A stretch of 64,000 nt of DNA. It comes from a virus. Positions 3,448 through 52,175 of this stretch are shown here, piece by piece. A program made the position numbers and the translations under genes. The stretch's first letter is position 1, and the number at the start of each line of letters is the position of its first letter. The stretch is taken from IMG/VR virus record IMGVR_UViG_3300028800_000073, positions 1 through 64,000 of that record, one strand, 5' to 3'. Under the pieces are notes generated by a model. It ran no database searches. It worked only from the letters and a program-made list of their open reading frames with translations, and was not told the DNA's origin.

Positions 3448-3776
3448 TACTTAGCCTTTGCCGCGATAGCACGCTTAGCCGGGGCATTGGACTCCTCAGC
3501 TAGCTCCAGGGCGTCCCACTCGGAGATGCTGGGGAAGGCTGCCATCAGCAGGGTGTGGACCTTGCAGCGGCGGCTATTGACACCGTCAGACAGCTTGACT
3601 GAGACGGTACCGTCACTGTCAACATGGCCCTTGATGGAGTGCTGCGGGAAATTGTAAACGATATTGGTCTTGCCCTGAGTCGAGAAGCCGTGGCGTCTCA
3701 CTTGGCCCTTGTTGGAGATCTCGTACATGCCGTTCCATCCTGAGATGGGGCGCCACAGAGTTACGGACTTAGTCAT
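3447..3776 (-). CDS. NUMOD4-motif protein lacking an HNH nuclease
   Basis: Residues 8-28 (WRPISGWNGMYEISNKGQVR) match the NUMOD4 motif found at the N-terminus of phage HNH homing endonucleases, and V-H-T-L-L-M-A-A-F is the usual strand before the HNH core. The protein stops at 109 residues with a basic Ala/Lys tail and no His-Asn-His residues. It is therefore either a remnant of a homing endonuclease or a free-standing DNA-binding module. ATG follows AAGGAAACAAC, a strong ribosome site. Confidence 0.8.
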   Translation of the reverse strand: MTKSVTLWRPISGWNGMYEISNKGQVRRHGFSTQGKTNIVYNFPQHSIKGHVDSDGTVSVKLSDGVNSRRCKVHTLLMAAFPSISEWDALELAEESNAPAKRAIAAKAK

Positions 3777-3797
3777 GTTGTTTCCTTAGAAACGGGT

Positions 3798-4079
3798 TTA
3801 GTTCTCAAGGTCAATGTAAGCGTCTTTTAATTCTAGCTCGTGAAGGAACTCATTGAGATCGTTACTACGATCAATAGCGGCATCACCACCGTCTGGGTCG
3901 GTAATCCAAGCGAGTTCCTCTTTGAATCGAGCCACTGAAATCATTGTTCTATTGGCATCACCGTAGGTGAATGAGCAATTACTGAGTTCATCCATGAACC
4001 TAGTGAATTGCCCCTCGCCAAAGAAGCACTCTAGTTCGCTCAGCGGAACGAATTGGCACTTCTGAATGTTAGGCGTCAT
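3798..4079 (-). CDS. Tandem paralog family B, member 2
   Basis: A 93-residue acidic protein. The start (K-C-Q-F-V-P-L-S-x-L-E-C-F-F then F-M-D-E-L) aligns with the upstream gene at 4069-4359 (K-C-K-Y-V-P-I-x-x-L-E-Q-F-F then F-L-S-E-L), so the pair is a tandem duplication. The genes overlap by 11 nt. The function is unknown. Confidence 0.75.
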   Translation of the reverse strand: MTPNIQKCQFVPLSELECFFGEGQFTRFMDELSNCSFTYGDANRTMISVARFKEELAWITDPDGGDAAIDRSNDLNEFLHELELKDAYIDLEN

Positions 4080-4359
4080 GCGCCATAACCTCGACTGGTA
4101 CTAGATCAATCAAGGTATCATCAGGAAGATTCGCCTTAAGCGCTTCAATTGTACTATCCAATACGCCGAGATCCTCGGCTACGGCTAGTAGTCTAGCCTT
4201 GGTAATGAGTACCCCTACTTGGCCTAGCTCAGAACCGCCTAGCTCCTCGACGTCCCAGGCATAGGCTAGCTCGGAGAGGAATAGGTCGAATCGGTTGCCA
4301 CTGAAGAACTGTTCAAGTGCTTCAATGGGTACGTACTTACACTGTTGTGTTGATATCAT
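4069..4359 (-). CDS. Tandem paralog family B, member 1
   Basis: A 96-residue acidic helical protein sharing its first ~30 residues with the following gene (3798-4079) and diverging afterwards. It starts one base after the end of the HicB-like gene. The function is unknown. Confidence 0.75.
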   Translation of the reverse strand: MISTQQCKYVPIEALEQFFSGNRFDLFLSELAYAWDVEELGGSELGQVGVLITKARLLAVAEDLGVLDSTIEALKANLPDDTLIDLVPVEVMAHDA

Positions 4360-4360
4360 G

Positions 4361-5611
4361 TTATTCTTTGGTTTTAGGGAAGTAGTGCTGATACAGGAAT
4401 GGTTGCTTTCTCTCGTAGCTGTACATGAAATCGCGTAGCATTTGCTCTGCTGTGCGCATCTCTTCTAGGCGTCTAATGCATTGCTCAACAGTTGGCTTAT
4501 CTTCATCGAAATCACAGAACCACTCGAAGAGCTTCCGTAGACCAGTCAGCTCCTCCATCGCTTCTTTATCGAAATCCTCGATGGCACGCTTAGCCATCGT
4601 GGCAACGCTGTGACCGTTTAACTCATCGTCAATGAACTTGCGCAGCTTCTCAATGGCTTCACCTGAGGTGGCCCCATAGATCAAGTCCAAACCGAAACCA
4701 ATCCTCACCGTAGAAAACGCTACCCAACGGTCACCGCTTACTACTTTAGCAGCCCCCAAGGTAACGGTGCGGCCATCAGCTAGCGTTACTGCTTGAGTGA
4801 CCTCAACGTTCTCGGCTTCCCACTTCTTCTCTAGCTTCTCCTTGATCTGCCGTGTCACTTCAGAGCGCACCGGCGCACAAGCACAGACGTCGGACTCTTT
4901 GCCGTCACCAAGGAACAGTTGGCCGTCCCACAGCTTCGCTACAACGCTATACCGGTAATCAACGGGGTACGTAGCGCCGCTCTTTATAGTGATATACTCA
5001 CGGAGCATACCACCGGGTACGTCTTCATTCGGAACCTTCCTAGCGCTACTACTGATAATGAGATACGTCTTGATCTTCTCCACGATCTCACCACGGGCTT
5101 CATCAATCGTAGCCCCGTAGGCCAGCATTCCTGGGATGGCATCAACCTCAGCGATGATGCGACCGTCATCCTCTTTATCGAACTCTACGGTATACGAATG
5201 AGCACCGATCTGGATTACATCGCTGAAGCGTGTACGCTCGAACAATGACTTCTCGCCACCTTGCTTGTGGCAATCCCCAATTAACTGGCAGTTAGCAGAG
5301 GCATCTCCGCACATCCACCAATAATTGTCCCAAACCGGCTTAACCTCGAAGCCGTTGACAGTACCGTCTGCGTCAACTGCCACCCAGTTATAGGTGGTCT
5401 TACTCCAGTCGATATCTTCATCAATCACTGGCGCTACCTGATACTCGTATTCAGCGAAGTTGAATGGAGCATCATGCGCCTTCGAAGCAAAGCAGTACTG
5501 CTCCTTGTAGTTGCCTTTACGGCGCTCCAAAATCTCCATACCATCGGCGGCTGACATCAGGATAGTGGCGCACATGTCGAAGGGCATCAACGCCCCTGGA
5601 TCGTTACTCAC
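4361..5611 (-). CDS. Large protein with HicB-like domain
   Basis: A 416-residue protein. Residues ~138-185 read as a HicB-type partial RNase H fold (T-V-E-F-D-K-E-D-D-G-R-I-I-A-E-V, then P-G-M-L-A-Y-G-A-T and E-A). A degenerate second copy may occupy ~297-333 (G-F-G-L-D-L-I-Y-G-A-T-S-G-E-A). No HicA-like mRNA interferase lies beside it, so a toxin-antitoxin role is unlikely; stand-alone HicB folds can be regulators. The rest is unrecognised, with several Cys and Trp residues at 95-115. It overlaps the gene upstream by 4 nt. Confidence 0.65.
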   Translation of the reverse strand: MSNDPGALMPFDMCATILMSAADGMEILERRKGNYKEQYCFASKAHDAPFNFAEYEYQVAPVIDEDIDWSKTTYNWVAVDADGTVNGFEVKPVWDNYWWMCGDASANCQLIGDCHKQGGEKSLFERTRFSDVIQIGAHSYTVEFDKEDDGRIIAEVDAIPGMLAYGATIDEARGEIVEKIKTYLIISSSARKVPNEDVPGGMLREYITIKSGATYPVDYRYSVVAKLWDGQLFLGDGKESDVCACAPVRSEVTRQIKEKLEKKWEAENVEVTQAVTLADGRTVTLGAAKVVSGDRWVAFSTVRIGFGLDLIYGATSGEAIEKLRKFIDDELNGHSVATMAKRAIEDFDKEAMEELTGLRKLFEWFCDFDEDKPTVEQCIRRLEEMRTAEQMLRDFMYSYERKQPFLYQHYFPKTKE

Positions 5612-6354
5612 TCCTCGCTCTCCTCGAACTCAATGATATCCCGTACTTCGCCGGCGTACTGGCACAGGAACTGGAGGGCCTTCTTGTGGTCCTCAATGAA
5701 GCTCCATGCCTTATCAGCTGCCTCGTCATTGGCGTAATCATAGTCCGTGGCTAGGCTCTGGAGTACCTTGCCCCAGAGGAACAGGAAGGCATCAACCTGC
5801 TCGTGATCCAGTTCAATGGACTCATCTGGATCAATACGGATCGGTGAGCCTTCTTCCTTGGCATCCGATAGCTTAAGCGCTGCCTCAGCGGATTCCTCGC
5901 GGCCTCGGACTTCAATATCAGCTAGAGTCGGCAAGTGTACCTTACCGTCACGCTCAGCACCGGCTAGGGTACGGATTGGCTTAGTGCCAACACCGGGATC
6001 CGCAGTCGCAAGGGCGTCCTTAATAGCTGGTGTAACCTTATCCGCTAGAACCGTCACCCCTGGGGTCCGATTCATGGCTTGTACTACTCCTAATACGGTT
6101 TCCGGTGAATACCCTAGATCAGCAGCGCACTTCGCTACTGAGCCCTCTGAGGGATGGTCACAGAAGTACTTGACGATCTCAGCAATGACAGCAACTTCGA
6201 TTTCGTTCATGGTTTCCCTGATGGTTTGTGGTGGCTCATCATACGCAATTGGATCGTTACTAATCTGTGACCTAAATGTGGCCGTTATGTTATCGTTGTC
6301 ATCAACGTAATACGTGGCCATGTAATTGCCCTCTTTCTGCGTAATCTCTCTCAT
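5608..6354 (-). CDS. Putative winged-helix-like acidic protein
   Basis: About 248 residues. Residues ~50-100 (I-A-E-I-V-K-Y-F-C-D, then V-A-K-C-A-A-D-L-G-Y-S-P-E-T-V) look like a winged-helix or HTH segment; the C-terminus is acidic. ATG 6354 is chosen because it overlaps the upstream TGA as ATGA. ATG 6363 and ATG 6321 (with AGAGGG ahead) are alternatives. It follows the AAA ATPase gene and may act with it. The function is not established. Confidence 0.55.
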   Translation of the reverse strand: MREITQKEGNYMATYYVDDNDNITATFRSQISNDPIAYDEPPQTIRETMNEIEVAVIAEIVKYFCDHPSEGSVAKCAADLGYSPETVLGVVQAMNRTPGVTVLADKVTPAIKDALATADPGVGTKPIRTLAGAERDGKVHLPTLADIEVRGREESAEAALKLSDAKEEGSPIRIDPDESIELDHEQVDAFLFLWGKVLQSLATDYDYANDEAADKAWSFIEDHKKALQFLCQYAGEVRDIIEFEESEE

Positions 6355-7619
6355 GTATTCCATTTCTCTTTAAGTGCTTTACGGACACAGGCTTCGGTGA
6401 ACTGAGCGGCAGTGAAGTCTTTTGAGCTATCAACTAAACCACTGATCTCTAACTGAGTGTGCTCCTTCAATATCCTCTTAGCTATCTTGACACGACTAGC
6501 ACTACTAAGGGTCTTCAGGTCCAAGATGCGGTCTATGCGCCCTGGTCTAGAAGTACCACCGTGTTCATCGAATACAGCTAGCGCCGGATCGATCTTCATG
6601 ATGTCGTTTGTTGTGATAACAGTGAATATGCCGTCTGTGGTATCCGCGCCAGCAATGGCGTTCAAGAAGCAGTCGAAGGTCAAACCACCATTGATGGTCT
6701 TATTGAGGTTCTCCCGCTTATTGAATACCGCATCGATATCCTCGAACAGTGCGATGAATGGGGTATTCGCTGAGGCTTCTTTCCATTTATCTACAAAAGA
6801 GCTATTACCAAATGTCGATAAGTCGAAACAAATAAGTGGCATATCCAAGGTCTTAGCCAAGGATTTCACTAAGGTGCTTTTGCCGGTACCGGGCTTACCG
6901 GTCAGCAGCCATCCTCGGCGCCACGGAATGCCCTTCTCACGGTACCAGCTGCTGAGCTGGAGCCATTGCTGGGCCTCTTTAACAGCTTCAGCGACGTTGT
7001 CATCAAGACTCAAATCATCCATCTCCGGAACATTCGAAGATGATAAAAGCTCTTCCTCACTGTGAGTTATAGCTTTAGACCATAGCGCGAAGTCTTTTCC
7101 TATTGAGATCTCATCCGCTGGCGGTGGTTGTGCCGTTGACGGTGACCCATTGTTCACTGGCCCACAGCAGTACCGCACCATGAACCTTCCCTTGCTTGGT
7201 CTATTGGCAAAGGACGCTTTAATGGCATTGACGAACTTATAGGGATTCAGCGTACCCCTGAGGTAACTGATCTTCAGTTGGTTAACCGTAGACTTGTTAT
7301 CTTGCCACGACACTTTAATCGGTATCAACCCATAGAACACCACCAGCGGGGTATACCCGATCTTCTCGAATAAGGCGTACTCCCGCTTGGAGTTCATGTT
7401 TATTGTCATGGCATTTACGGTAAGTATCCCTGCTGGGAACCGCTTACACTGATGCCAGATGAACCAATCAATAGGAACGGTATCACCGGAAACAGCTATC
7501 TCACCGATCAGTAGCGTACTCAACCATGACAGCGTATTCCGTATCAAGCCCCATCCACCAGCAATCGCAGCAGCACCACCAGCCAGCCATGGCCAGTTAC
7601 TTCCGAGGTTCAGGTCCAT
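6351..7619 (-). CDS. BCS1-like membrane-anchored AAA+ ATPase
   Basis: A 422-residue protein. Seen: a hydrophobic N-terminal segment (~10-40), a beta-rich middle, W-R-R-G-W-L-L, then Walker A GKPGTGKST (~239-247), Walker B FIALFEDIDAVF (~283-294), a TTND sensor-1 region and an R-P-G-R-I-D motif. W-R-R-G followed by G-x-P-G-T-G-K-S-T is typical of BCS1-type AAA proteins, which form membrane-anchored heptamers that translocate folded substrates. BCS1-like ATPases occur in bacteria and phages, often in defence or regulatory contexts. Neighbours are a 33-residue membrane peptide upstream and an acidic winged-helix-like gene downstream. The substrate is unknown. Confidence 0.85.
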   Translation of the reverse strand: MDLNLGSNWPWLAGGAAAIAGGWGLIRNTLSWLSTLLIGEIAVSGDTVPIDWFIWHQCKRFPAGILTVNAMTINMNSKREYALFEKIGYTPLVVFYGLIPIKVSWQDNKSTVNQLKISYLRGTLNPYKFVNAIKASFANRPSKGRFMVRYCCGPVNNGSPSTAQPPPADEISIGKDFALWSKAITHSEEELLSSSNVPEMDDLSLDDNVAEAVKEAQQWLQLSSWYREKGIPWRRGWLLTGKPGTGKSTLVKSLAKTLDMPLICFDLSTFGNSSFVDKWKEASANTPFIALFEDIDAVFNKRENLNKTINGGLTFDCFLNAIAGADTTDGIFTVITTNDIMKIDPALAVFDEHGGTSRPGRIDRILDLKTLSSASRVKIAKRILKEHTQLEISGLVDSSKDFTAAQFTEACVRKALKEKWNT

Positions 7620-7698
7620 CGTCGTCCCTATACATGTCTTTGATGCAGGCGACTAGGATCAAGAATCTCAGGGCAAAGTAATCAATGAGCTTTTTCAC
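7597..7698 (-). CDS. Predicted 33-residue membrane peptide
   Basis: A short frame starting with GTG 7698, which overlaps the upstream TGA (GTGA), and ending 23 nt inside the AAA gene. It encodes a basic start, a hydrophobic stretch (F-A-L-R-F-L-I-L-V-A-C-I) and a charged tail. The coupling pattern supports it; its size and the lack of homologs I recognise limit confidence. Confidence 0.45.
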   Translation of the reverse strand: MKKLIDYFALRFLILVACIKDMYRDDDGPEPRK

Positions 7699-7982
7699 AG
7701 GAAGTCGCTTCTCCGTAGACCACGGTAGGCATAGGGGTCACGGGCTTCTTCATTGGCGTCAATACGGATCTCTAGCTCTTCCTTGATCCAATCTTGGATA
7801 GCTAGCTCCTCTTTATCAGCTATCTCGTGATAACCAAAGCGCCGACACAATGCTACAAAAGCGCATAGCTCCTCGAATTCCGGTTCGTTGTCTCTTAAAT
7901 AGGTCTCGACTTCAGCACGCATGGCATCATATTCATCGTCTCTAGCATCAGCCATGGTGTAATCATCTAGTTCGTCGGGCAT
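7695..7982 (-). CDS. Hypothetical acidic helical protein
   Basis: A 95-residue very acidic helical protein (many Asp/Glu) with no domain recognised. ATG follows GGGGGAACA, a good ribosome site located in the end of the HAD gene. Confidence 0.7.
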   Translation of the reverse strand: MPDELDDYTMADARDDEYDAMRAEVETYLRDNEPEFEELCAFVALCRRFGYHEIADKEELAIQDWIKEELEIRIDANEEARDPYAYRGLRRSDFL

Positions 7983-8362
7983 TGTTCCCCCTGGATGATA
8001 CCTTTGTTACGGGTTACTCTGAACGCTCTATCATCATAAATAGCTCTGATGTTACGACTCTTGATACAGGTGATGGGGATGACCGCCCCTAGGTGTTCTA
8101 GGCACCACTCCTTGAGCTTATTGCGCACTACAGCGTAATCACGACCATCATGCGTTGGACCGACACGCGCCGTAAACAGACATACGCTATGGCCCTTGGC
8201 TATCCATTCTTTGACTGTGGCTACCATCTTCTCAATGGGCTCGCCACGGATCTCATGTGGATCCTTAGGATTAGGTCCGTCATTTGTTAGTAAGGTGCCA
8301 TCGAAATCTACGGCTTTCCACTTAAGCCCAACCAATTGATCACAGGCTTCGTACCAATTCAC
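7967..8362 (-). CDS. HAD-superfamily phosphatase
   Basis: A 131-residue protein. Motif I is V-D-F-D-G-T (D19 nucleophile, D21), with L-F-T-A-R as motif II and I-Y-D-D-R-A as motif IV near residue 109. The small size and absence of a large cap suggest a capless nucleotide or polynucleotide phosphatase, similar to the phosphatase part of phage end-healing enzymes. An RNA ligase is encoded far away at 61.9-63.1 kb, so an end-repair role is possible but inferred. Its ATG overlaps the upstream TGA. Confidence 0.85.
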   Translation of the reverse strand: MNWYEACDQLVGLKWKAVDFDGTLLTNDGPNPKDPHEIRGEPIEKMVATVKEWIAKGHSVCLFTARVGPTHDGRDYAVVRNKLKEWCLEHLGAVIPITCIKSRNIRAIYDDRAFRVTRNKGIIQGEQCPTN

Positions 8363-8667
8363 TTTATCCCCTTGACTGGTAAGCCCTTAACGCATTCTTT
8401 GATGTGCTCGCAGCACTTGGCCCACATAGTGATAAGCTCATTAGCTGTTATCTCGCCGCCTATTGAACCGACCTTCTTCGTGAGATACGCCTTCAGGGCC
8501 TGCTCTACAGTTCCGTAGTACCCATGTTGGTCATAACGGACTTTACCGATATTCTCTTCTTTAGTTGGTTTGCTCTTGGGGCCGGCGCCGGTAATGACCT
8601 TGAATAGCAACTGCACGCAATCGGTGTCGCAATCGAGACACCACTGTTCATCGATGTTGATCTTCAT
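8359..8667 (-). CDS. Hypothetical protein
   Basis: A 102-residue protein with a Cys cluster near the start (W-C-L-D-C-D-T-D-C) and C-C in the C-terminal helix; metal binding is possible. ATGA coupling at both ends. No family is recognised. Confidence 0.7.
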   Translation of the reverse strand: MKINIDEQWCLDCDTDCVQLLFKVITGAGPKSKPTKEENIGKVRYDQHGYYGTVEQALKAYLTKKVGSIGGEITANELITMWAKCCEHIKECVKGLPVKGIK

Positions 8668-8849
8668 TTTGCCTTAGTGGTTTGGTCTACTACGGTGAAT
8701 AGGATTCCGGTATTGGGTAAGTGGAGCTTACGCCATTTCGTCAGTAATGCCTCTTTGTCACCGTAGTCCTTGGTTATGCCATAGGAGTCGGTGACGTAAT
8801 GTCCTTTGTCGTCGACTCTCAAATAGCGATTCCAAGGGCAGTCGCTCAT
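8664..8849 (-). CDS. Hypothetical protein
   Basis: A 61-residue basic, aromatic-rich protein, probably a small beta-sheet fold. It overlaps both neighbours by 4 nt. No function is recognised. Confidence 0.65.
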   Translation of the reverse strand: MSDCPWNRYLRVDDKGHYVTDSYGITKDYGDKEALLTKWRKLHLPNTGILFTVVDQTTKAK

Positions 8850-9040
8850 TTCTTGATATAGTCCATGACATCGTCGATGATGCTGCTCTTGAACACCTGT
8901 AGTGCTACTACGAGATCCTTCTTAGCTCTAGAGATCTGCCGGGCATCCTTCTTGGTGCAGGCATCCATGTAGAGTTCAACGAATTCGACGATGTTCTCGA
9001 TGTCGTCATTGGGACGACGCTGTGGTGCTGGTGCGGCCAT
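8846..9040 (-). CDS. Hypothetical helical protein
   Basis: A 64-residue helical protein with a Pro/Arg-rich start. A strong CTAAGGAGATACC site precedes ATG 9040, so it probably opens a translation block after the 52-base gap. No domain is recognised. Confidence 0.7.
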   Translation of the reverse strand: MAAPAPQRRPNDDIENIVEFVELYMDACTKKDARQISRAKKDLVVALQVFKSSIIDDVMDYIKK

Positions 9041-9092
9041 GGTATCTCCTTAGCAGTAACTAACATACAGGGAATGATGGGTCAACTACTAT

Positions 9093-9566
9093 TCACTCTT
9101 CAAGTATCTTCTCGGCATCCCGTATAATACGGTCTATACCATCGAAATAACCACGGTCGTAATTATCTTTCATCCATTCCAGCCGATTGCTGATACGACA
9201 GCCGTGGATCTTAGTGCCCTCTGCATCTGGGTCATACGGTACGCCGTATGCGTCTATTCTTGTGTGTACGAAGTCCTTAAACTTCTGGAGGTCATCTCCA
9301 CGCTTCTTATGGTTATCGTAACCATGCTTCAGTACCGTAATGAAAGCCAGGATGTTGTTAGCCATTGAGACTGGATTCACTTCGGTATTACCGGGCACCG
9401 CTGTACCGTGAACCCGTAGGAGTTGCATGTACCCCTCATCATCAGCTGGCGGCAGTTCATCCGCAAGCATAGCCTCCATCTCCAATAGCAATCCACTATA
9501 TCCCGGCATTCCAGTCAATATAGCGTCATGGGCGTCTTTGAGGACGCGCTTTAGATCGGAATTCAT
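9093..9566 (-). CDS. Hypothetical protein
   Basis: A 157-residue soluble, mainly helical protein with no motif recognised. ATG follows the AAGGAAACAC leader common in this genome. Confidence 0.7.
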   Translation of the reverse strand: MNSDLKRVLKDAHDAILTGMPGYSGLLLEMEAMLADELPPADDEGYMQLLRVHGTAVPGNTEVNPVSMANNILAFITVLKHGYDNHKKRGDDLQKFKDFVHTRIDAYGVPYDPDAEGTKIHGCRISNRLEWMKDNYDRGYFDGIDRIIRDAEKILEE

Positions 9567-39888: not shown

Positions 39889-40074
39889 TTACCTTCCGTA
39901 TTCATGCAGTACCCGTGTTTTAACTAGTCGATATTCTATGACCGCCTCTGGATCTTCAATGACTACTCTACGACAGGTGGGGCAGAAGTACAAAGAAGCT
40001 ACCTCATGAACCATATGCTCTTGCATCATATCCCCACAACTACACCCCACACTGTCTTGTCCACACCGGCTCAT
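39889..40074 (-). CDS. Zinc-ribbon protein at the end of cassette 2
   Basis: A 61-residue protein. C-S-C-G near residue 11 and C-P-T-C near 31 form a likely zinc ribbon, with other Cys at 4 and 11. Its ATG overlaps the E1 stop as ATGA, so it is coupled to the conjugation genes. Adaptor or E3-like roles are speculative. Confidence 0.7.
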   Translation of the reverse strand: MSRCGQDSVGCSCGDMMQEHMVHEVASLYFCPTCRRVVIEDPEAVIEYRLVKTRVLHEYGR

Positions 40075-40757
40075 CGCGCCGCCGCTGCTACCGCTACTGT
40101 CTTAGGGGTGTTGAACAGTTCTAGGGACAATAGATTCAAATTAAAGTCCTTTTCTAATGACATACCCCGTAGGTACTTAGAGAACTGACTAACCATCAGA
40201 CCAGCCGCGATATTGGCTGTGAAGATGGTGGACTTAGCGGTACAACTCCCTTGGAAGGCATCCTCTGCTGCAAATAGGCTATCACCATACGAGGGGGTAA
40301 CGAAGTTGTCTTCGGTCACCACGCGAATGGTCTCAGCCGACATGCGGGCGTCAATGAACACCTCAGTCTCGGGAAGCTTAGCAACCGTAGCGAAGATCTT
40401 ACCTCTTGTGGTAATATCGTCGACACAGCAGAAATAGATATCACCCTTAACTGCGTCACAGAACCGCATGTCATGAGCCGTAGTAGCTCCGGGGTTGAGC
40501 CCCTCACAATCAACAAGAAGAGCATCGACCTTCTTCTTACCGACGTCCCCGGGCCTAAAGCCCTGGGGACCGACATTGACGATGTCAACGGTGTCGAAAT
40601 CAACGATGTTCAATTTACCGATGCCACAGGCAGATAGCTGGAGAGCTACCTGCCTGCCAATGGCGCCGACTCCAATAACAACAGCCGCAGTCGCCTTGAG
40701 ATCTGCGGTTGGCAGCAAAGTAGACTGCCTATCGAACCGTGTTGGTTCAGTAGCCAT
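40071..40757 (-). CDS. E1/ThiF-like activating enzyme (cassette 2)
   Basis: A 228-residue protein. The nucleotide site is V-I-G-V-G-A-I-G near residue 32, followed by D-F-D-T-V-D-I-V-N (ATP-Mg contacts), where the usual N-x-x-R-Q reads N-V-G-P-Q, then G-K-K-K-V-D and D-D-I-T-T-R. Candidate catalytic Cys is C172 in G-S-C-T-A-K-S-T. Family knowledge: adenylates the C-terminus of a ubiquitin-like protein and forms a thioester. It is a minimal ThiF/MoeB-sized enzyme with no extra C-terminal E2-binding domain. ATG shares one base with the JAB stop (TAATG). Confidence 0.88.
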   Translation of the reverse strand: MATEPTRFDRQSTLLPTADLKATAAVVIGVGAIGRQVALQLSACGIGKLNIVDFDTVDIVNVGPQGFRPGDVGKKKVDALLVDCEGLNPGATTAHDMRFCDAVKGDIYFCCVDDITTRGKIFATVAKLPETEVFIDARMSAETIRVVTEDNFVTPSYGDSLFAAEDAFQGSCTAKSTIFTANIAAGLMVSQFSKYLRGMSLEKDFNLNLLSLELFNTPKTVAVAAAAR

Positions 40758-42202
40758 TAGGATTCCCCTAGCATGATTTGAGTTTCTTCTTCGCTCGCCG
40801 GCTTAGCCGGTGGAGTGCCGCAATACTCAATGAATGAACCACCATTCTCGATAACATCACTTTCGTCGTACATATCCTGGATCTGGAACAGAGCCGCATC
40901 AGCAGTCAGCTCGCCAGATACGACTTTCTCAGCCAATAGCATCTCATCGTGGGTCAGGATGAGGGCATCACAGGCGTCTACGGAGCCACGTAGCTGCCAT
41001 AGACAGTTAGCCCGAACCTTCTTGTACACATTCGTGACGATGTCGCCGGTAATGACGGTATCACCGTACTTCCGGGTATGCGTCAGATTGTTCATTGCTC
41101 TCTCGAAATCATCACGCTCAGCGTTGATGTTCTCTTCGAAGTCAACAAATGCCCACGCCTGACTAAACGGCAAATCGTAGAACGTCTCACCACGAGACAG
41201 CGTAAACCGCTGAGTCCCGTTTGTTACATTTATGACTTCCTTGAAACCATACTCCTTGAGATACTCTACTCTTTCTGGCGTGGAAGGCGGAACCCACTTA
41301 AGCTGCTCCATAGACCAGAGAGCGTCAACGTACGTACCCTCTGCAAGAGTGGGGGGCGTGACGCCACCTTGTTGTCTGGGAAACGGAATCGTGGACAGTG
41401 CCTCCTCCCCATGGGACTTGGCGCCAATTATGATTTCCTGAGTAATCTCCGCGACTGCGTCAGTAATCGCCTGCTGCGTCGGAGTCGTCTCCTGACGAAG
41501 AGCGAGATTCTCCCGTGCAGCAGCTCTAGCGGCCCGCTTCTGCTGCTTCTTGCTAAGAGGCATCTGCTGCTGTACCTGCTTGCCCCAGTACCCACTTGGG
41601 AGCTGTGAGCGCCCCTTGTAGCCACCACGGGTATCTGCGTCTTCACCGTAACCACCATAGGCATAGCCCTGGACAGTAATCTTGGGGGTGATCTCTGCCT
41701 TCCACTCAGCGTGATTAGCGCCCTTGAAGTCAGTGGTAAGAGTCAGCTCCTCCTTGAGCATCATCTGGAGGTTAACATCATTGCCAAGGGATACTCGAAT
41801 ACGGGCATAGAGCGGGCCACCCTTAGGAAGGATAACCATCATTGCCCATGGCATGGAGCCAAAGGATTCAGCGAAAATATTCTCATCGTGCTGCGACGGA
41901 TTCAGGCATCCAGACGGGTGGGTGTGGATGTAGATACGTCCAACCTGATGGGGCTTCAACTTATGCGGCCCCTCGGGGTCACAGTACTTCATGAACATGT
42001 TGTCAGCGATATCCGCTGCGTCCATGTCAACGAATACCGTGGAACACTTCTGCTTCGGAATATACAGATCGGTAACCAAGAATGGGTCAGCCGTTTCAGC
42101 TAGACCCATGGCTCCGACTTCATGGTTATAATGATCGCAGATGAATTGGAGCTTAGCCCGAGCATACGGGGTAAACTTGAGCGTGATGCCGGTGATGTTC
42201 AT
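40757..42202 (-). CDS. JAB/JAMM metallopeptidase (cassette 2)
   Basis: A 481-residue protein. The full JAMM motif is visible in the first ~110 residues: E28, H93-T-H95-P, S103 and D106. This predicts a zinc isopeptidase that trims Ubl precursors or removes conjugated Ubl. A basic Gln/Lys/Ala-rich stretch at ~205-230 leads to a long C-terminal region (~280-480) with no recognised fold, possibly a substrate- or E1-binding domain. It lies between the E2 and E1 genes in the same operon. Confidence 0.88.
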   Translation of the reverse strand: MNITGITLKFTPYARAKLQFICDHYNHEVGAMGLAETADPFLVTDLYIPKQKCSTVFVDMDAADIADNMFMKYCDPEGPHKLKPHQVGRIYIHTHPSGCLNPSQHDENIFAESFGSMPWAMMVILPKGGPLYARIRVSLGNDVNLQMMLKEELTLTTDFKGANHAEWKAEITPKITVQGYAYGGYGEDADTRGGYKGRSQLPSGYWGKQVQQQMPLSKKQQKRAARAAARENLALRQETTPTQQAITDAVAEITQEIIIGAKSHGEEALSTIPFPRQQGGVTPPTLAEGTYVDALWSMEQLKWVPPSTPERVEYLKEYGFKEVINVTNGTQRFTLSRGETFYDLPFSQAWAFVDFEENINAERDDFERAMNNLTHTRKYGDTVITGDIVTNVYKKVRANCLWQLRGSVDACDALILTHDEMLLAEKVVSGELTADAALFQIQDMYDESDVIENGGSFIEYCGTPPAKPASEEETQIMLGES

Positions 42203-42207
42203 TGTGT

Positions 42208-44604
42208 TTATCTTGATGGGGTTTCGGATATAGCGGGTGCTGCCGTAATGAAGTCTACGTGTGCTAGCCTACAGAGCGTATCAGCAACAACCTCAATTGT
42301 AAGACCAGAACGGAAGGTACCATGGTCATTAAGAGCGCTCCTGAGCCGATGAATGGTTTCATACCAGTCAACGGATTCCCAGTCTTCGAGTTCTGAGCTA
42401 TCCTCTTCAAAATCTTCATCCTTAACAAGTACTAGATCCATGATATACGCCTGAGGCACGAAATGCTGCAACAGAGTCATCAAATAAGCTTCCCGCATAC
42501 CGGGTTGGCATACCGCGTCTGATAGGCCCACTGAAGATGGGTCACAGGTCTTACAGGTCTCGGTATTCATGATCTCATCGAAGGCAACAATGGTATTGTT
42601 GAAAACAGCATCGGACAAATTTATTTCGCCTAGTGTGGCACCACAGCTTGGGCAATTGCACCCCGGCGTTGGAGCTACTACTGGGAACGCTACAGTGGAA
42701 TCCGCTTCAATAGCCGCACGTTGAGCCTCTATAACTGCACGCTGAGCCTCGCGGGCTACTCGTGCTGCCTCACGCTGAGCAGCTTCTAATGCTAGTCTAG
42801 CCTCTATCTCTTTGTTAACACAGTTCGCGCAGATACAAGTGCTGCCTTGATTACGACCGTGGTAGCGCCTGGAATCATATCTGGTATTACACGTTGCACA
42901 CGGCTTGATATAGCGCTTATCAATCGACTGTTTACTGATACCACAGACCTCAGTGCAATTCGGGCACATATGGATATCGGCATGCGGATCACGCTTCCTG
43001 GTCTCAGCGACAAGGGGCGTAGTACAGATATCACAGCGATCCATATCGGACCAATTATCAAGACTGATATATGGCGAACGGCCATACGTCATCAAGATGC
43101 GCTCGATATATTGGAATAGATCCGCGATTAGTCCATTACGCATCAGGTTGCCAGCGGTAGCTAGACCCTCACCGAAACATAGGTGCGTACCCTCAACGTG
43201 GGGGTGCGACCAGCTTGTCCCGCGTTCACGCCTGGGGAAATGCGGGGTAAGCGCCTTAATCCTACAGACTCTATCGACATTACGCTGTGTATCTCCACAG
43301 GCATAACCGAAGTCATACGCTGCGATGATAATAGCGAACTTATTGAACTTAATCGGGATCTTTCTATCGTCCATCAGTTCGACATCTTCGGTTACGAACT
43401 TGATACCAATGGGTGCTACTCCATTGTCTATCATGGAACCCTCTTCATGGAACTGAAGAGCCTTGGCACGCATCAAGGTGGCGCACTCAACGATGAACCG
43501 ATCAATGACGTCTTGCGACGGACGAGGCGGTTCCACGTTGTAGGGGTTCTCACCATTTTTAATGGCCAGCAATTCGTCTAGCACCTTCTTCTTCATGTCA
43601 TTAGAGAAAGCTTCACGAAGAATAGTGGGCAGCTTCTGGGCACTCTCGCCGCAGCAGAACAGGCCGTGCCAATGGGCTAACACATTAGTGACGCGTTGGA
43701 AATTCCCAGCGTTACCATTTGCTGCGCCCTTCTTGAGCCCCTCTTCGTAACCGAAATAGAAGTTCTGCACTACTTTAATGAGTTTGTCTAAATCCTCGAT
43801 GGCATCAGGAACTAGCCTGCGCACCGTCGAGTCTACAGCAGTTCCCTGCTCTGTGTTCAGTGTTCTCACTTGTCTTTCCTGTGGTGTTACTACTGCAATA
43901 GCGCTTCTGTCTGATCCCGTACTAGCGAAGTCGGTACTTACGCTGAAAATTCTGGGAGCGTCGCTACTCACCATAAACATATGCGGTGGTATGCCCATAG
44001 CCCGGGTGTAGTCACTTAATGTAGCCCGCAATGGACCTTCTTCTACTACCATGTGAGCCGGAATCGGCTGGATCGGAGGCGCCATTGGTTCTAACGCCTC
44101 CTGAATAGCACGGAGACTAGCAGCCGCAGATGCAGGGCTGGGGAAGGCGCCAGTTAAGTCGCCACCGACAGTACCAACTGTATTGTTCGCCCCAGCTGCT
44201 CGCTGGCTTTCAATGGCGTGCATAATCTCACGACCATCAGCGTTAATCTCGTCCATCACAGTATGATTAGCCGGTCTACCACGTATCGTAAAAACATCCC
44301 CGGGGCGGATCTGAGTCATTACGGGAGCGCGGCTATTATCCAGTAGAACGCGGTTGACTTCGTCTCTAAACTGTACTTCGCTTAACGGCACTGGTACTGG
44401 GCGGTTAAGTGCCCTATCTACAATATTTGTCGAAGCGTTATCACCGAACTGTTCTCTCCAGGCGCTCTGGCGTACCAAAAGCTCATCTAAGACATCTCGT
44501 GACATATTCGGGAATCGCTCCCGTAAATTAGGGGGATGCCTGAAATAGTCCAGAGCGTCCTGGAGCATGTCATCCGGTGAGGAAAAAGGGTTGAACTCAC
44601 TCAC
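42208..44604 (-). CDS. E2-like protein fused to RING/ribbon-like zinc modules (cassette 2)
   Basis: A 798-residue protein. Residues ~440-505 read like an E2 core: strand-rich K-F-A-I-I-I-A-A-Y, then S-H-P-H-V-E-G-T-H-L-C-F-G-E-G with candidate catalytic C476, followed by helices and P-Y-I-S-L-D-N-W. Directly after (~523-595) are paired CxxC clusters, C-D-I-C ... C-P-N-C and C-A-T-C ... C-I-C-A-N-C, then an Ala/Glu/Arg coiled coil (~598-635) and another C-N-C-P-S-C ... C-K-T-C set. This gives an E2 plus zinc-treble-clef layout that could combine E2 and E3 functions. The N-terminal ~400 residues are unrecognised. Confidence 0.75.
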   Translation of the reverse strand: MSEFNPFSSPDDMLQDALDYFRHPPNLRERFPNMSRDVLDELLVRQSAWREQFGDNASTNIVDRALNRPVPVPLSEVQFRDEVNRVLLDNSRAPVMTQIRPGDVFTIRGRPANHTVMDEINADGREIMHAIESQRAAGANNTVGTVGGDLTGAFPSPASAAASLRAIQEALEPMAPPIQPIPAHMVVEEGPLRATLSDYTRAMGIPPHMFMVSSDAPRIFSVSTDFASTGSDRSAIAVVTPQERQVRTLNTEQGTAVDSTVRRLVPDAIEDLDKLIKVVQNFYFGYEEGLKKGAANGNAGNFQRVTNVLAHWHGLFCCGESAQKLPTILREAFSNDMKKKVLDELLAIKNGENPYNVEPPRPSQDVIDRFIVECATLMRAKALQFHEEGSMIDNGVAPIGIKFVTEDVELMDDRKIPIKFNKFAIIIAAYDFGYACGDTQRNVDRVCRIKALTPHFPRRERGTSWSHPHVEGTHLCFGEGLATAGNLMRNGLIADLFQYIERILMTYGRSPYISLDNWSDMDRCDICTTPLVAETRKRDPHADIHMCPNCTEVCGISKQSIDKRYIKPCATCNTRYDSRRYHGRNQGSTCICANCVNKEIEARLALEAAQREAARVAREAQRAVIEAQRAAIEADSTVAFPVVAPTPGCNCPSCGATLGEINLSDAVFNNTIVAFDEIMNTETCKTCDPSSVGLSDAVCQPGMREAYLMTLLQHFVPQAYIMDLVLVKDEDFEEDSSELEDWESVDWYETIHRLRSALNDHGTFRSGLTIEVVADTLCRLAHVDFITAAPAISETPSR

Positions 44605-44894
44605 GTCTTCCTCGACAACTTCTCAAGCGCAGCATCTAGCCCTTTGACTCTGAACTCGCTGACATCTCCTTCATGGTTACAAAGACCACAAACGCATAGG
44701 CTATGCTCGTGAAAGTCGAATTCGGCCATGTCGACCATTATTCCTTTACTGTCAAAAATACCTACACATACGCCGCCTATCTCAAAACGAGATCTACCTC
44801 CGCATCCCGGGCAGATCAGGTCTTGGGATGTGCCCCGGTTTATGTCGTTTTTCGTTAATCTGAACTTCGTTATTACTTCATTGGGGTCATTCAT
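44601..44894 (-). CDS. Zinc-ribbon protein
   Basis: A 97-residue protein. C-P-G-C-G near residue 28 and C-V-C-G-L-C-N-H near 67 form a ribbon with extra ligands. It is coupled by TAATG to the gene upstream and by ATGA to the E2-like gene. It may be an adaptor in the cassette; no direct evidence. Confidence 0.7.
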   Translation of the reverse strand: MNDPNEVITKFRLTKNDINRGTSQDLICPGCGGRSRFEIGGVCVGIFDSKGIMVDMAEFDFHEHSLCVCGLCNHEGDVSEFRVKGLDAALEKLSRKT

Positions 44895-45688
44895 TACTTA
44901 CCTACGATAGTGAACTTCTTTGCTAATTTAAGACGCTTCTGCAATGTCTCACGATCCCAACCCTGGCCCTTGGGCTTCGGCTTAGGGCTAAGCTGGAAAA
45001 CCATAACCAATACACCTTCGCCACCTACGCCTATACTAAGAGTTTCGAGATGCTTACCTACGTGTCCATTCTTATAGCAGCTGGACAACGTAAACTGAAT
45101 GAAATCCTCCTCGCTCGGATTCGGAGTACCATAGTCCAGCACTGCGTTTTCTACTAACCCGGCTCTGTAGGAACTATACTTACAAGGCTTATTGAACGTT
45201 AGGAAGAGTAGCCCACCACGCTTCTTCATCATTGAAGTGAGACCTCTCTCTAATTGCCGAGCACAATCACCGTAGTCGTCGCAGGCTATAACATCGAATT
45301 TCCAGCTATCGCGATCAGCTATCTCGGCAAACTGGGCTGCCATAACTGTAAGCGCGTCGCCGTCTTCCTTGCGTCGGTTAACCATTTCAGAACAGAAGGG
45401 TCGGAAAGCCTTAGTCATCTCACCTTCCTGCCCATCATCCTTAAAAGCATGGGACTGATACAGAACTAGCCCGGATTTACCCTCCAGCCATTTTTGTATG
45501 AGTCCCTGTTTTTCGGTATGGTGCATCGAAGGATGCCCAGTAGCCTTTTTCCATTGACGCCTGTAAATGTTAACCTTAGACAATTCCAAATTCAACTTCT
45601 CGCCAATCTCTTTGTTCGGTGCGCCGCTATGCATCATTGCAAATATTGCGTCACGAAGTTTAGTACCATCAGCTAGGCGTATAGTCAT
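44894..45688 (-). CDS. HTH protein with possible methyltransferase-like core
   Basis: A 264-residue protein. Residues ~20-50 form an HTH (A-P-N-K-E-I-G-E-K-L-N-L-E-L-S-K-V). The central part (F-D-V-I-A-C-D-D-Y-G-D-C, then K-R-G-G-L-L-F-L-T-F) faintly resembles the D-P-F-G and G-G-L-L strands of Trm1-like methyltransferases, but no SAM glycine motif is seen. It is the first gene after the terminator that closes the polyUbl operon; TAGGAAAAAAC precedes ATG. Confidence 0.55.
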   Translation of the reverse strand: MTIRLADGTKLRDAIFAMMHSGAPNKEIGEKLNLELSKVNIYRRQWKKATGHPSMHHTEKQGLIQKWLEGKSGLVLYQSHAFKDDGQEGEMTKAFRPFCSEMVNRRKEDGDALTVMAAQFAEIADRDSWKFDVIACDDYGDCARQLERGLTSMMKKRGGLLFLTFNKPCKYSSYRAGLVENAVLDYGTPNPSEEDFIQFTLSSCYKNGHVGKHLETLSIGVGGEGVLVMVFQLSPKPKPKGQGWDRETLQKRLKLAKKFTIVGK

Positions 45689-45762: not shown

Positions 45763-46428
45763 TTAGGCGCCCTGGACCTTGAGCGGGGTGACGGAGATCT
45801 TGTCCCCGTTACGCAGCACAGTCGCAGCCGTGGAGATCTCGTTGTTCACACGAACGAGCTTGCCACGGATGTCATTCAGGCCCTGCTGAGCAAGGAACTG
45901 AGTCAGGGTGATGCCGTCAATGGTCTGAACGGAGCTGGCGAAGCCGGCACCATCGTTGTTGATGTACAGAACCTTAATGGTCTCCACGGCACCCTGGACC
46001 TTGAGCGGGGTAACCGAGACCTTATCGCCGTTCTGGAGAACGTAACCCGCATCAGCCAGGTTGTTATTCACGCGAACCATCTTGTTGGCGATGCTGACAC
46101 CACGACCCGAAATGAACGCCGCGAGCGTGGTGCCCGGGGTGAACGCAACGGAGTCAGCGAAGCCGCCGCCATCGTTGTTGATGAACAGGACCTTGCTAGC
46201 AGCAGCGGGAGCCGCGTAAGCAGGGGCCGCAGCGAACTCGATCTCAATGTAGTCACCGTGCTTAATCGTAGCGTGACCGCTTGAGGGGGTCTCGGAACGG
46301 TTAATGTAGACGGAGGAACCAGCGGGGAGGCCTAGCGCGTTGATGAGTGCATAGACCGTGATATCACCGGCGAAATCCTTGAATGCCGGGGTGCCGCCGT
46401 TGATTTCAACGTTTACTGAGATAGTCAT
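45763..46428 (-). CDS. Tandem polyubiquitin-like protein (three beta-grasp units)
   Basis: 221 residues in three units: 1-79 (divergent, followed by an Ala/Pro linker), 80-152 and 153-221. Units 2 and 3 share V-L-x-I-N-N-D-G-x-G-F, T-L-x-x-F, R-V-N-N, L-x-N-G-D-K and both end P-L-K-V-Q-G-A. The repeated end at an internal position and at the true C-terminus is what a polyprotein cut into monomers would show; G-A replaces the usual G-G. Codons are markedly G/C-ended and the gene has its own terminator, suggesting abundant product. Likely substrate of the neighbouring E1, E2 and JAB proteins. An unprocessed structural protein is the alternative. Confidence 0.82.
   Translation of the reverse strand: MTISVNVEINGGTPAFKDFAGDITVYALINALGLPAGSSVYINRSETPSSGHATIKHGDYIEIEFAAAPAYAAPAAASKVLFINNDGGGFADSVAFTPGTTLAAFISGRGVSIANKMVRVNNNLADAGYVLQNGDKVSVTPLKVQGAVETIKVLYINNDGAGFASSVQTIDGITLTQFLAQQGLNDIRGKLVRVNNEISTAATVLRNGDKISVTPLKVQGA
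45769..46035. repeat. Direct DNA repeat inside the polyUbl gene
   Basis: Two near-identical segments of about 45 bases (45769-45813 and 45990-46035) encode the shared ends of units 2 and 3. Differences are mostly synonymous or isolated, so the repeat arose by unit duplication. Confidence 0.8.
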
Positions 46429-48974: not shown

Positions 48975-49673
48975 TTATGACCGGGTTAGGATACAGGGAG
49001 GTGTGACGCCGAAAATTGTTTCTCTTGGCATCCGTTCGACCTTAGAGGCCTTGTCGGTGTACCAATTGAACCAGTTAATGAAACTCCATACCGCTAGACC
49101 GCTAACGATCTCAGCAGTGGGGCCAACGGTAATTTGCGAACCACAAGCACTGACAACAACGACTTCTTCGTCGCCGCAGAGAGTGCCCTCCCAGAATTTG
49201 ACGTCATCAGGACTCGTCGGACGCACCGTATAGGTACGACCTAAGTCGACACCCATACGGGTCTCGAACATGACGTCGATAAATGGCTTATACCGCACGG
49301 CCCCTTCCCAGATTTCCTTTCTGGAGGACATTGTGTCGGTAAGCAAGAATACTACGGACCCCAGCGTTGTGCGGCCATTAACGGCCTCACAATGTTTGGT
49401 CACGTCTAAATTCGTCTGTGTCTTAATAAGGTCAGCTAAGGCGTCTACCTTGAACTTACCGATGTCGTTGTTGCCGTAAATCTGATTTGCGATATTGTGG
49501 GACTCGACCTTGTCGAAATCCCAGACATGCAAATTGATAACACCGAGCTTAGCCAGACCCATGGCGATACGACTACCAGTGGCTCCGACTCCGATAACGT
49601 CAATACGGGTATTGTCGAACTTAACCGGCGAGAATACCTTTTGGTGCCGCATGGCATCGACTAAGTTACTCAC
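48975..49673 (-). CDS. E1/ThiF-like activating enzyme (cassette 1)
   Basis: About 232 residues. V-I-G-V-G-A-T-G-S-R is the nucleotide glycine motif; D-F-D-K-V-E-S-H-N-I-A-N-Q is the Mg-ATP loop with Asn where Arg is usual; then G-K-F-K-V-D and T-D-T-M-S-S-R. The candidate catalytic Cys lies in S-A-C-G-S-Q (residue 177). The start is set at GTG 49673, which overlaps the JAB stop by 8 nt; ATG 49754 would overlap the JAB gene by 89 nt and ATG 49652 is also possible. It activates the Ubl encoded next to it (inferred). Confidence 0.85.
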   Translation of the reverse strand: MSNLVDAMRHQKVFSPVKFDNTRIDVIGVGATGSRIAMGLAKLGVINLHVWDFDKVESHNIANQIYGNNDIGKFKVDALADLIKTQTNLDVTKHCEAVNGRTTLGSVVFLLTDTMSSRKEIWEGAVRYKPFIDVMFETRMGVDLGRTYTVRPTSPDDVKFWEGTLCGDEEVVVVSACGSQITVGPTAEIVSGLAVWSFINWFNWYTDKASKVERMPRETIFGVTPPCILTRS

Positions 49674-50433
49674 CCCAGAACGTTTCTTCGCTGAATTGTC
49701 CAAAGCGACCCGACGCAGGACCAGCCTGCTGTCCGGATGCCGAGAACTCCGCATGCGTCTTCATAGGTGCCGCGTGGGGATCTACAAAGTTACTTCTCGG
49801 TGTCGGCGTTGGAGTCTGATATGGATACGAGATCAGAGACTTATTGGCCGAATAAAACGATTCAACCAACGAGTTGACCTCTTTACCCCAGTGGCTTTTT
49901 CGGTCGCCCCCGGCAGCGTAATCGATCTCCCAATCAATATCCTCGACTACGATGTCCATCTCGAACCAGAAGAAGTCCAACTTCATCTTGTGACGCTTGT
50001 TCACGATGCCACGGAGCACCCAGGGGTACTCGTAGTTATCGCGGAACGCCATCGTCTGGTCGTTGTCCTGACCACTGGGCAAAACGTCCATATTGACGTG
50101 GCTATGGAAATAGCCGCGCAAGTTATTGGCACGCCACAACGCTGGATCGATACCAGCGGCCATGTCCTCAGCGATAAGCTGAGTACCTAGTGTGGATAGC
50201 CCCTCGGAAGTCAGCTCAGTGGTTGTCGAGTGAACCTGCTGCTTGAACAAATAGACGTCATCAACATAAATGACGCGCTCGCCGTTCTCTTTGACTAAAC
50301 GAGCCGTGGTCAGCCAGCCGACTTCGGTACTAACAATATCAGTCAAAATCCACATATCCGTAGCCGCCCTGAGTGAGACTTTCACTCGGGGGCAGCCTAG
50401 GACGGTGGTCTGGAATGCATGTGGATTAAACAT
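49666..50433 (-). CDS. JAB/JAMM metallopeptidase (cassette 1)
   Basis: A 255-residue protein. Complete JAMM motif: E37, H110-S-H112-V, S120 and D123. The C-terminal ~70 residues are basic and Pro/Gln-rich. Shorter than the cassette 2 JAB (481 residues), which has an added C-terminal region. Predicted Ubl maturation or deconjugation. Its ATG shares one base with the E2 stop. Confidence 0.88.
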   Translation of the reverse strand: MFNPHAFQTTVLGCPRVKVSLRAATDMWILTDIVSTEVGWLTTARLVKENGERVIYVDDVYLFKQQVHSTTTELTSEGLSTLGTQLIAEDMAAGIDPALWRANNLRGYFHSHVNMDVLPSGQDNDQTMAFRDNYEYPWVLRGIVNKRHKMKLDFFWFEMDIVVEDIDWEIDYAAGGDRKSHWGKEVNSLVESFYSANKSLISYPYQTPTPTPRSNFVDPHAAPMKTHAEFSASGQQAGPASGRFGQFSEETFWGE

Positions 50434-52175
50434 TAGAACGGCCCTTCTCCTGGAGTTCTTTCTACTTCGTCAGCATCTTCTGGTGCCCCAACTGCTACAA
50501 GCTCTTCTAAAGCAGCGGCAATAACTTCAACAATCTCTGCACCGTCAACAGCAGTAGCCGTGCCAGTAGCGCCGGCTCCGGCATCAACAATCGTTACAGT
50601 ATCAACAGCAACAGGTGGTACCGCAACAGGTGGTACCGCAACAGGTGGTACCGCAACAGGTGGTGCTTCAGCCACTGCTGGGGTTTCTTCTTCACCCTCT
50701 AGAATGCCTTCAACAACAGTCTCAACGGTATCGACTTCAACGGGCTGCCCAGCTGCCGCTCGTGCTGCACGACGCAACTCCCGAGCTGCTTCCTTATCGA
50801 TCTCCTGTTGCTTAACCGATAGCGGCCAAGCATGAACCATCTTGCCGGCGGCGTCGTCAACATTGCAGGTCTGGAGAATCGCAATCACTAGCTCGATGGC
50901 ATCAGCAATCTGATATCCAGCGACTAGCTTCGGTAGCACCTCTTCCATATTGCCGAGACACATACGCCCCGTTGGGAACACATGGGGACCATGCATATTG
51001 GGCTGCATACCAGTCACTTGGCGATCAAGGTTGGTAACGACGATGTTGTACCGCTTGATATCGATATGAATCGACATGCGACCAACTTCGTGCTCCTTCT
51101 TCGACCGTGGATCAACTACTGTCAAAGTATTGGTGCGCACCGTAATATTACCGTTACGCATCCTGATCTGCTGGATCAACGGATTAGCCGCCAGACGATC
51201 ATACTCTGCTGTGAATCGCGGAGTACTGAAATCGGCATCATTGTCTAGTACTGCTATTTCCTTGAGGCACTGGCGTTCTTCGCGGATCCCGTCAAATACC
51301 TTCTTATTCAAGTTCGTAAGCTCGGTCTGGACCGTGTTCAGTCTATTGGTGATCTCACGGACCTGGATCTGCTTACGCTTCTCAACCATTCTGACGTAGT
51401 CCGCTCGTAGCGCTGCTGGATCAGTCTCGACGAGCTTAGCACGGGCATAGTTCTCGGCAACGTATTGAATGATCTTCTTGAAGATCTCAACTTCTCTAGG
51501 GCTATTGTTGTGACACAAGTCCGAATAGATATAGAGGTTATTCTCATCGAAGCCTGCAATCGGTCGCTCGGGATACTCCGGGGAGCAAACGTCTATGCCC
51601 TCAGTCCATGGGACGCCATCCATTGCGTCACGGGTCTGTAACTCCATGCCCCACAGAATCCGAGGTGGATCATACGAGGGCTCGCCTCCATCTCGTGCTT
51701 CTGGAGTAGCCCACACATGAATCTTGAACATCGATTCAAGGGTATTGGGAACAATGGAACGACTATTATGTGGTACGTCGATAGTGACATCGCGCTTAAT
51801 GACGGGGACCAAGATCTCACGGCAGATCTTTAGCCAGCCATCGGCTACTGGGTTACTGACAACACCACCACGGATATGACCCCAGTTAACTATACGGATC
51901 GTTGAAGGATCCCTACCGGCAACGGACGGGGTACCATCACGATAAACAATTTGAGCAACCTTTATGATAACCCCGGCAGCTTCAGCTGTTGGCGGTGTAG
52001 CAACGGTAGCGGTGATATTGTAGAGCTTACGACCAGAGCTTTCAATCTTAGCGATTAATGCTTCTCTAGCTACGAAGTGACCACCATGCTGGGGTTCACC
52101 GTAGATACGCAAGCCGATCCCACGAAGTTCTTCGCGGGACATCTCGGTTGCTTTGACAAGGACTAGTTCAGGCAT
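50433..52175 (-). CDS. E2-like conjugating protein (cassette 1)
   Basis: A 580-residue protein. The core around 375-440 has R-Y-N-I-V-V-T-N-L, then H-G-P-H-V-F-P-T-G-R-M-C-L-G-N with candidate catalytic C406, followed by helices (A-I-E-L-V-I-A-I-L-Q). The H-x-x-x ... G-x-x-C-L pattern parallels H-P-N ... G-x-I-C-L of E2 enzymes. Residues ~265-320 are coiled coil. After the core comes an Arg/Ala helix and V-P-P-V-A repeats, ending in an acidic tail. No zinc clusters, unlike the cassette 2 E2. It overlaps the SbcD gene by 8 nt. Confidence 0.75.
   Translation of the reverse strand: MPELVLVKATEMSREELRGIGLRIYGEPQHGGHFVAREALIAKIESSGRKLYNITATVATPPTAEAAGVIIKVAQIVYRDGTPSVAGRDPSTIRIVNWGHIRGGVVSNPVADGWLKICREILVPVIKRDVTIDVPHNSRSIVPNTLESMFKIHVWATPEARDGGEPSYDPPRILWGMELQTRDAMDGVPWTEGIDVCSPEYPERPIAGFDENNLYIYSDLCHNNSPREVEIFKKIIQYVAENYARAKLVETDPAALRADYVRMVEKRKQIQVREITNRLNTVQTELTNLNKKVFDGIREERQCLKEIAVLDNDADFSTPRFTAEYDRLAANPLIQQIRMRNGNITVRTNTLTVVDPRSKKEHEVGRMSIHIDIKRYNIVVTNLDRQVTGMQPNMHGPHVFPTGRMCLGNMEEVLPKLVAGYQIADAIELVIAILQTCNVDDAAGKMVHAWPLSVKQQEIDKEAARELRRAARAAAGQPVEVDTVETVVEGILEGEEETPAVAEAPPVAVPPVAVPPVAVPPVAVDTVTIVDAGAGATGTATAVDGAEIVEVIAAALEELVAVGAPEDADEVERTPGEGPF
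50608..50666. repeat. 15-bp tandem repeat in the E2 gene
   Basis: About four copies of GCAACAGGTGGTACC (plus-strand reading), encoding the V-P-P-V-A repeats in the disordered C-terminal region of the cassette 1 E2-like protein. Copies are identical except the last, so the array is recent and probably variable in length. Confidence 0.85.

Follow-up and report, generated by a model that had tools for sequence, protein, structure and literature searches.

Ubiquitin-like (Ubl) pathways built from the same kinds of genes as those described here are known from bacteria, where Bil and type II CBASS work in antiphage defence (PMC11354881, PMC10097602). The E1 of the Bil pathway, BilD, has an inactive and an active adenylation domain plus a Cys domain (PMC11354881), and Iyer et al. 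2006 predicted prokaryotic E1/E2/JAB/Ubl operons of types 6a-6e (PMC1779556). Phage-run ubiquitin-like conjugation has barely been treated in the accessible literature. The window analysed here, a stretch of 64,000 nucleotides taken from a virus record of 79.8 kb, holds two E2/JAB/E1 gene sets, cassettes 1 and 2. Cassette 2 is like Bil (BilABCD) in the kinds and the order of its genes, with a tandem-domain Ubl, an E2, a JAB-type DUB and an E1 (PMC11354881). Unlike Bil, it is phage-encoded and its E2 bears Cys-pair modules, and the E1s of the window are single ThiF domains (228 aa and 259 aa), without the architecture of the Bil E1. PADLOC models gave no match to the E2, JAB or Ubl of the window.

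The E2 gene of cassette 2 lies on the minus strand (42208..44604, GTG start) and encodes a protein of 798 aa, hereafter E2-Zn; the call rests on the ORF and on a homologue in a sister contig, IMGVR_UViG_3300028800_000089 (L009 and L012). The initial annotation, which gave no strand, had reported an E2-like Cys and CxxC clusters in one 798-aa protein, and this is what the minus strand encodes. The start of the gene overlaps by 4 bases the gene of a 97-aa Cys-rich protein directly upstream (44601..44894, minus; CPGC...CGLC), which is kept in the sister and is a possible further zinc partner. The JAB/JAMM protease gene (40757..42202, minus; 481 aa) begins 5 bases past the end of E2-Zn and has one base in common with the E1/ThiF gene (40071..40757, minus; 228 aa, Pfam ThiF 2e-21). 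In the direction of transcription the genes run SbcD-like, cassette 1 E2, JAB and E1, SbcC-like and three-domain Ubl, then HTH protein, 97-aa Cys-rich protein, E2-Zn, its JAB and E1, helicase, primase and DNA polymerase, the SbcC, helicase and primase labels being assigned by inspection of sequence features. The HTH protein, whose gene stands between those for the Ubl and the E2 (44894..45688, minus), gave a weak GerE match and has a counterpart of equal length in the sister. The set of Ubl, E2, DUB and E1 genes is complete around cassette 2, and the operon that follows the Ubl, made up of E2, a JAB whose metal motif is intact, and E1, is retained in the sister.

The E2/UBC-like core of E2-Zn (43045..43512, minus; residues about 365-520) was located by HMMs and by PDB and hhalign matches. 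It contains the active-site motif HPHVEGTHLCFG with Cys476 (43171..43206, minus), found by a pattern match for which shuffles give 0 expected chance matches. The Cys segment had been noted before as SHPHVEGTHLCFG with the catalytic residue numbered C476; the segment is there, at residues 466-478, and the numbering is correct, with the Cys in an HP[NH]-x-G-x-C context (HPHVEGTHLC). Scans with the active-site pattern at the DNA level and with E1 alignments opened up the E2 family. One of the E1-based scans gave 219 stretches encoding an E1 relative, 80 of which were taken further, and by both kinds of scan the same kinds of genes recur in many viral contigs. Iterated HMM searches of the ORFs from the scanned loci gave 84 E2-like ORFs, and the active-site Cys is kept in all except one (83/84). 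When the model was built without E2-Zn, its sister, L013 and L015, it still matched residues 367-555 of E2-Zn (E=6.1e-8); the family HMM searched against the phage's own genome found the core at E=2e-24. In a PDB search with a profile of 29 family sequences, 19 of the 26 matches were ubiquitin- or SUMO-conjugating enzymes, individually marginal (best E 0.009), and the alignments shown keep HP[HN]..G..C in register; two more matches, to chains labelled L3A2-1, have alignments resembling that of UBE2L3. The hhalign comparison of the family profile with five eukaryotic E2s, whose sequences were entered by hand and two of which agree with stretches in the search alignments, gave 95.9% (E=5.5e-9), whereas an unrelated control reached 0.9%.

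An AF2 model of residues 345-525 was moderate (pLDDT 73.8, pTM 0.68) and showed the order helix, strands, helix, helix, and a second AF2 model of E2-Zn reached pLDDT 67. Foldseek searches of both models (pLDDT 67 and 74) against the PDB retrieved no E2 and nothing significant, and those against viral models retrieved uncharacterised phage proteins (best E 8.8e-4). Searches with the single sequence of E2-Zn gave no useful match, and no Pfam, PHROGs, NCBIfam or PADLOC model fits the family convincingly. The failure of Foldseek to recover E2s from these predicted models is the main evidence against the E2 identity. We nevertheless favour that identity because the sequence evidence, together with the operon and the invariance of the Cys, carries more weight with us; that Cys476 sits in a UBC/E2-like core is well supported by the sequence comparisons.

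Past the core, E2-Zn has CxxC pairs at residues 524/527, 547/550, 569/572, 592/595, 651/654 and 684/687. Composition shuffles give 1.19 such pairs on average where residues 501-700 hold six, and 1 of 10,000 shuffles reached six. The first four pairs form module 1 (C524, C527, C547, C550; 42955..43035, minus) and module 2 (C569, C572, C592, C595; 42820..42900, minus), both invariant in four homologues and spaced as C-x2-C-x19-C-x2-C-x18-C-x2-C-x19-C-x2-C. After a gap of 55 residues that contains a helix there follows C-x2-C-x29-C-x2-C, which is the ribbon-like module 3 (C651, C654, C684, C687; 42544..42654, minus), present in E2-Zn and its sister only and giving weak zinc-ribbon Pfam matches. 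The helix lies in a linker at residues 597-640 (42685..42816, minus), rich in Ala, Arg and Glu, shorter in the sister and modelled by AF2 as helical from model residue 264. The invariance of the CxxC pairs strongly suggests that these modules bind zinc.

The initial annotation had described two CxxC clusters directly after the active-site Cys, a coiled coil and a third cluster. All three clusters exist, the third at 651/654 and 684/687, although "directly" is loose for a first pair 48 residues past the Cys, and what had been called a coiled coil is the Ala/Arg/Glu-rich helix at about 597-640 that is shortened in the sister. The cross-brace of a RING, FYVE or PHD domain has eight ligands, of which the second and third pairs lie close together. 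Such spacing is absent from E2-Zn, where the gap between pairs 2 and 3 is 18 residues, and the zinc-fold Pfam matches of the modules all fall below the curated cut-offs (best FYVE, 0.041). Because the 19-18-19 spacing lacks the short gap between pairs 2 and 3, the modules cannot be called RING. The proposed fusion of an E2 core to Cys-pair modules stands; their RING or treble-clef identity is not supported by that spacing or by the sub-threshold matches.

Homologues place this fusion in a wider setting. The counterpart of E2-Zn in the sister contig has 772 aa and keeps all CxxC pairs; the two proteins are 39% identical overall, 52% in the E2 core, 55% in the third zinc module and 29% in the first 260 residues. 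L013 and L015, at 22-23% identity to E2-Zn, keep the first four CxxC pairs and have no third cluster. The region of L013 at 4649-9461 has three E2-like ORFs, each with C-terminal CxxC pairs, and the two small ones (202 and 180 aa) have a single zinc-ribbon-like module each. In four other members, L093 and L094, which share the E1 clade of cassette 2, and L046 and L037, canonical C4C4 RING/FYVE-like modules with the spacing 11-12, 4, 11-14 occupy the same place as the modules of E2-Zn. An aligned profile of the RING-like relatives matches FYVE, NOT4 RING and cellulose synthase RING-type models at E 0.001-0.009. L092 has twelve CxxC pairs with a spacing that begins 11, 4, 3; its region 6004-7128 encodes an E2-like protein and then these pairs, closely set in a dense RING/PHD-like array. 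The E1 tree puts cassette 2 in a clade of six members in which every E2 partner has a zinc-type tail (SH-aLRT 95). On the whole tree the zinc label changes 6 times, one of these changes being an artefact at L009, because L009 is represented there by the cassette 1 E1 of the sister. A tblastn search with the zinc-clade core led back to the contigs L093 and L094 (E 8e-8 and 2e-7), and a final scan with that core found no new members. Judged from these sequence patterns, the zinc fusion is recurrent within the E2 family, and RING-like forms exist in it.

The putative modifier of the pathway is a three-domain ubiquitin-like protein of 221 aa (45763..46428, minus) with three beta-grasp-like stretches, which gave Pfam Ub-Mut7C/TGS matches at about 1e-4, slightly under the cut-offs. 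Its domains 2 and 3 are 60% identical and each ends with LKVQGA. The protein resembles a linear poly-Ubl precursor. The Ubl of the sister ends VEGAGSRN, so that a short tail would need to be trimmed there, and in many contigs small Ubl-like ORFs upstream of the E2s end GG or GA (VKGG, VEGG, VAGA or similar). We infer that such tails are consistent with processing by a JAB. The HxH...S..D metal motif is present in both JABs of the window, as HTHPSGCLNPSQHD in cassette 2 and as HSHVNMDVLPSGQD in cassette 1. That of cassette 2 has a long additional C-terminal part, weak RadC/Prok-JAB Pfam matches and a counterpart in the same position in the sister, and the E1 beside it has the ThiF domain and a conserved Cys, C172, invariant in two alignments (A1 and A3).

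Cassette 1 consists of an E2 recognised by family HMM matches (50433..52175, minus; 580 aa, GPHVFPTGRMCLG), a JAB with a weak Prok-JAB match (49666..50433, minus) and an E1/ThiF (48975..49754, minus; 259 aa, Pfam ThiF 5.4e-16). Its E2 had been said to lack zinc clusters, and we found no CxxC anywhere in its 580 residues. Both cassettes (40071-42202 and 48975-52175) are kept in the sister contig. Their E1s sit on distant branches of the E1 tree, which lends no support to the idea that one cassette arose recently by duplication of the other. A search around both cassettes yielded a single Ubl-like ORF, so they may share it. Target recognition could differ between them.

The homology, the operon and the conservation of the Cys residues in the E2-Zn cassette are established on sequence grounds, and we infer from there the enzymatic steps and an E3-like role. 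E2-Zn probably serves as the E2 in a ubiquitin-like conjugation pathway encoded by the phage, with its modules acting in an E3-like manner in cis. The JAB peptidase would cut the Ubl precursor, with its three domains, behind the VQGA tails, the small E1 would adenylate the C-terminus of the Ubl and take it onto a Cys, and the Ubl would then be handed on to Cys476 of E2-Zn. The C-terminal Cys-pair modules would bind either the target or the E2~Ubl intermediate; being in the same chain as the E2 core, they would do in cis the work of a separate E3 or adaptor. The tag could later be removed by the JAB. With zinc modules fused to an E2 core and the tagging machinery in the operon, a single phage protein may be tag carrier and target selector at once, and the polymerase, primase, helicase and SbcCD-like neighbours suggest that the targets are proteins of DNA metabolism. 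The E3-like role is plausible, and the RING/FYVE-type relatives L093, L094, L046 and L037 keep the combined E2 and E3 idea alive by homology only. As a wider and more tentative proposal, viruses may possess single-chain E2-E3 proteins, formed by repeated fusions in phages of UBC cores with RING- or ribbon-like zinc modules and used for ubiquitin-like tagging of their own; the window would then show a linear poly-Ubl precursor common to two distant E2/JAB/E1 sets of one genome.

A serious rival gives the modules a DNA- or target-binding role: the E2 core would be working, and the modules would be nucleic-acid-binding or scaffold parts that tether it to phage DNA or the replisome, outside the E2~Ubl chemistry. 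Their spacing would suit independent four-Cys ribbons or knuckles and not a cross-brace, which fits such a role, as do the weak zinc-ribbon matches of module 3 and the adjoining genes for DNA replication and repair. However, C4C4 RING/FYVE-like modules stand at the same position in some family members, and the best zinc match of the W2-type proteins, though weak, is ZZ-like and not a DNA-binding ribbon; we consider this explanation somewhat unlikely.

The other alternatives concern what the cassette is for. It could serve counter-defence, tagging or blocking a host immune protein or disturbing host Bil or CBASS conjugation, instead of regulating DNA metabolism; this reading concerns the targets and does not conflict with the E2 chemistry. 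Antiphage Ubl pathways with the same kinds of genes are known in Bil and type II CBASS (PMC11354881, PMC10097602), and the E1s of the window match CBASS E1-E2 models, but the match is confined to the common adenylation domain and may say nothing about function, and no defence-related neighbour was identified; we consider counter-defence unlikely. We regard it as highly improbable that the E2-like core lacks catalytic activity, in the RWD/UEV manner, or that the set is for sulfur carriage in the manner of ThiS/MoaD, with no protein tagging. The E1s are indeed of the small ThiF type and Cys-less E2-like paralogues occur in the family (L162, L064), but the Cys and the HPH motif are intact in E2-Zn, the Cys is kept in 83 of 84 members, thiamine or molybdopterin synthesis would need neither an E2 nor a JAB, and no gene of either synthesis was recognised nearby.

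Related cassettes were seen in a few bacterial contigs, among them L158 (an Ignavibacteriae MAG) and L160 (a Myxococcales MAG). L158 encodes at 5886-8618 a Ubl ending VEGGNN, an E2 with a Cys-rich tail, a JAB and an E1, and by inspection its downstream ORFs resemble trigger factor, ClpP and ClpX. In L162 (Candidatus Uhrbacteria, 4383-8921) three consecutive E2-like ORFs, one of which has the Cys, accompany a JAB, an E1 and a Ubl-like ORF; the two that have no such Cys may serve as UEV-like partners. In crAss-like and Flavobacterium phages (L002, L003 and L004) a protein with HSH...CLG, a JAB with an HSH metal motif and a ThiF are consecutive; in L002 and L003 a candidate Ubl ORF precedes them. 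The set probably represents the same pathway in diverged form. Its HSH...CLG protein escapes detection by the E2 HMMs, and we therefore rank it as a resemblance only.

Compared with the operons predicted by Iyer et al., as far as the accessible part of their account describes them, cassette 2 resembles types 6d and 6e but matches neither (PMC1779556). Type 6d operons likewise have separate Ubl, E2, JAB and E1 genes, but their E2s are without the His at the HPN position that E2-Zn has; type 6e operons, like the window, have a multi-domain Ubl and a separate Zn-finger gene, but their E2-like domains are without the Cys that E2-Zn has. That part of the account describes no E2-zinc fusion for types 6a-6e (PMC1779556). 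The PRTRC ThiF model is matched weakly by an E1 of the window. PRTRC protein B was rejected as a bacterial counterpart, the one protein B compared showing no alignment with the family E2 profile (hhalign 0.5%). Eukaryotic E2s of the UBE2W type share with E2-Zn the HP[HN]..G..C active site and align over the core, UBE2W also having HPH, whereas E2-Zn has an extra helix immediately past the Cys and, at either terminus, a large additional part. The eukaryotic E2/E3 hybrids BIRC6 and UBE2O join a UBC domain and substrate-binding parts in a single chain; the domains added to it are not known to be fusions of a RING type like that considered for E2-Zn. The family of E2-Zn offers compact candidate chains in which an E2 is joined to possible E3 or adaptor modules, and since these have relatives in cultured phage, two questions become testable: what is tagged by a phage as it infects, and whether one chain can play the parts of both E2 and E3 outside eukaryotes. 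The cultured relative is from Xanthomonas phage PhiXhv-12 (L239), where an ORF ending SGG, the E2-like gene and a ThiF gene lie at 3736-7612 and are annotated as hypothetical and thiamine biosynthesis. Its protein XYR92829.1 differs from E2-Zn in having 892 aa, another Cys pattern and no JAB recognised alongside, but it too combines an E2-like core, here with HPH...CLG (E=4.4e-6), with a Cys-rich C-terminus, and its gene is next to a ThiF gene and downstream of an ORF that ends GG.
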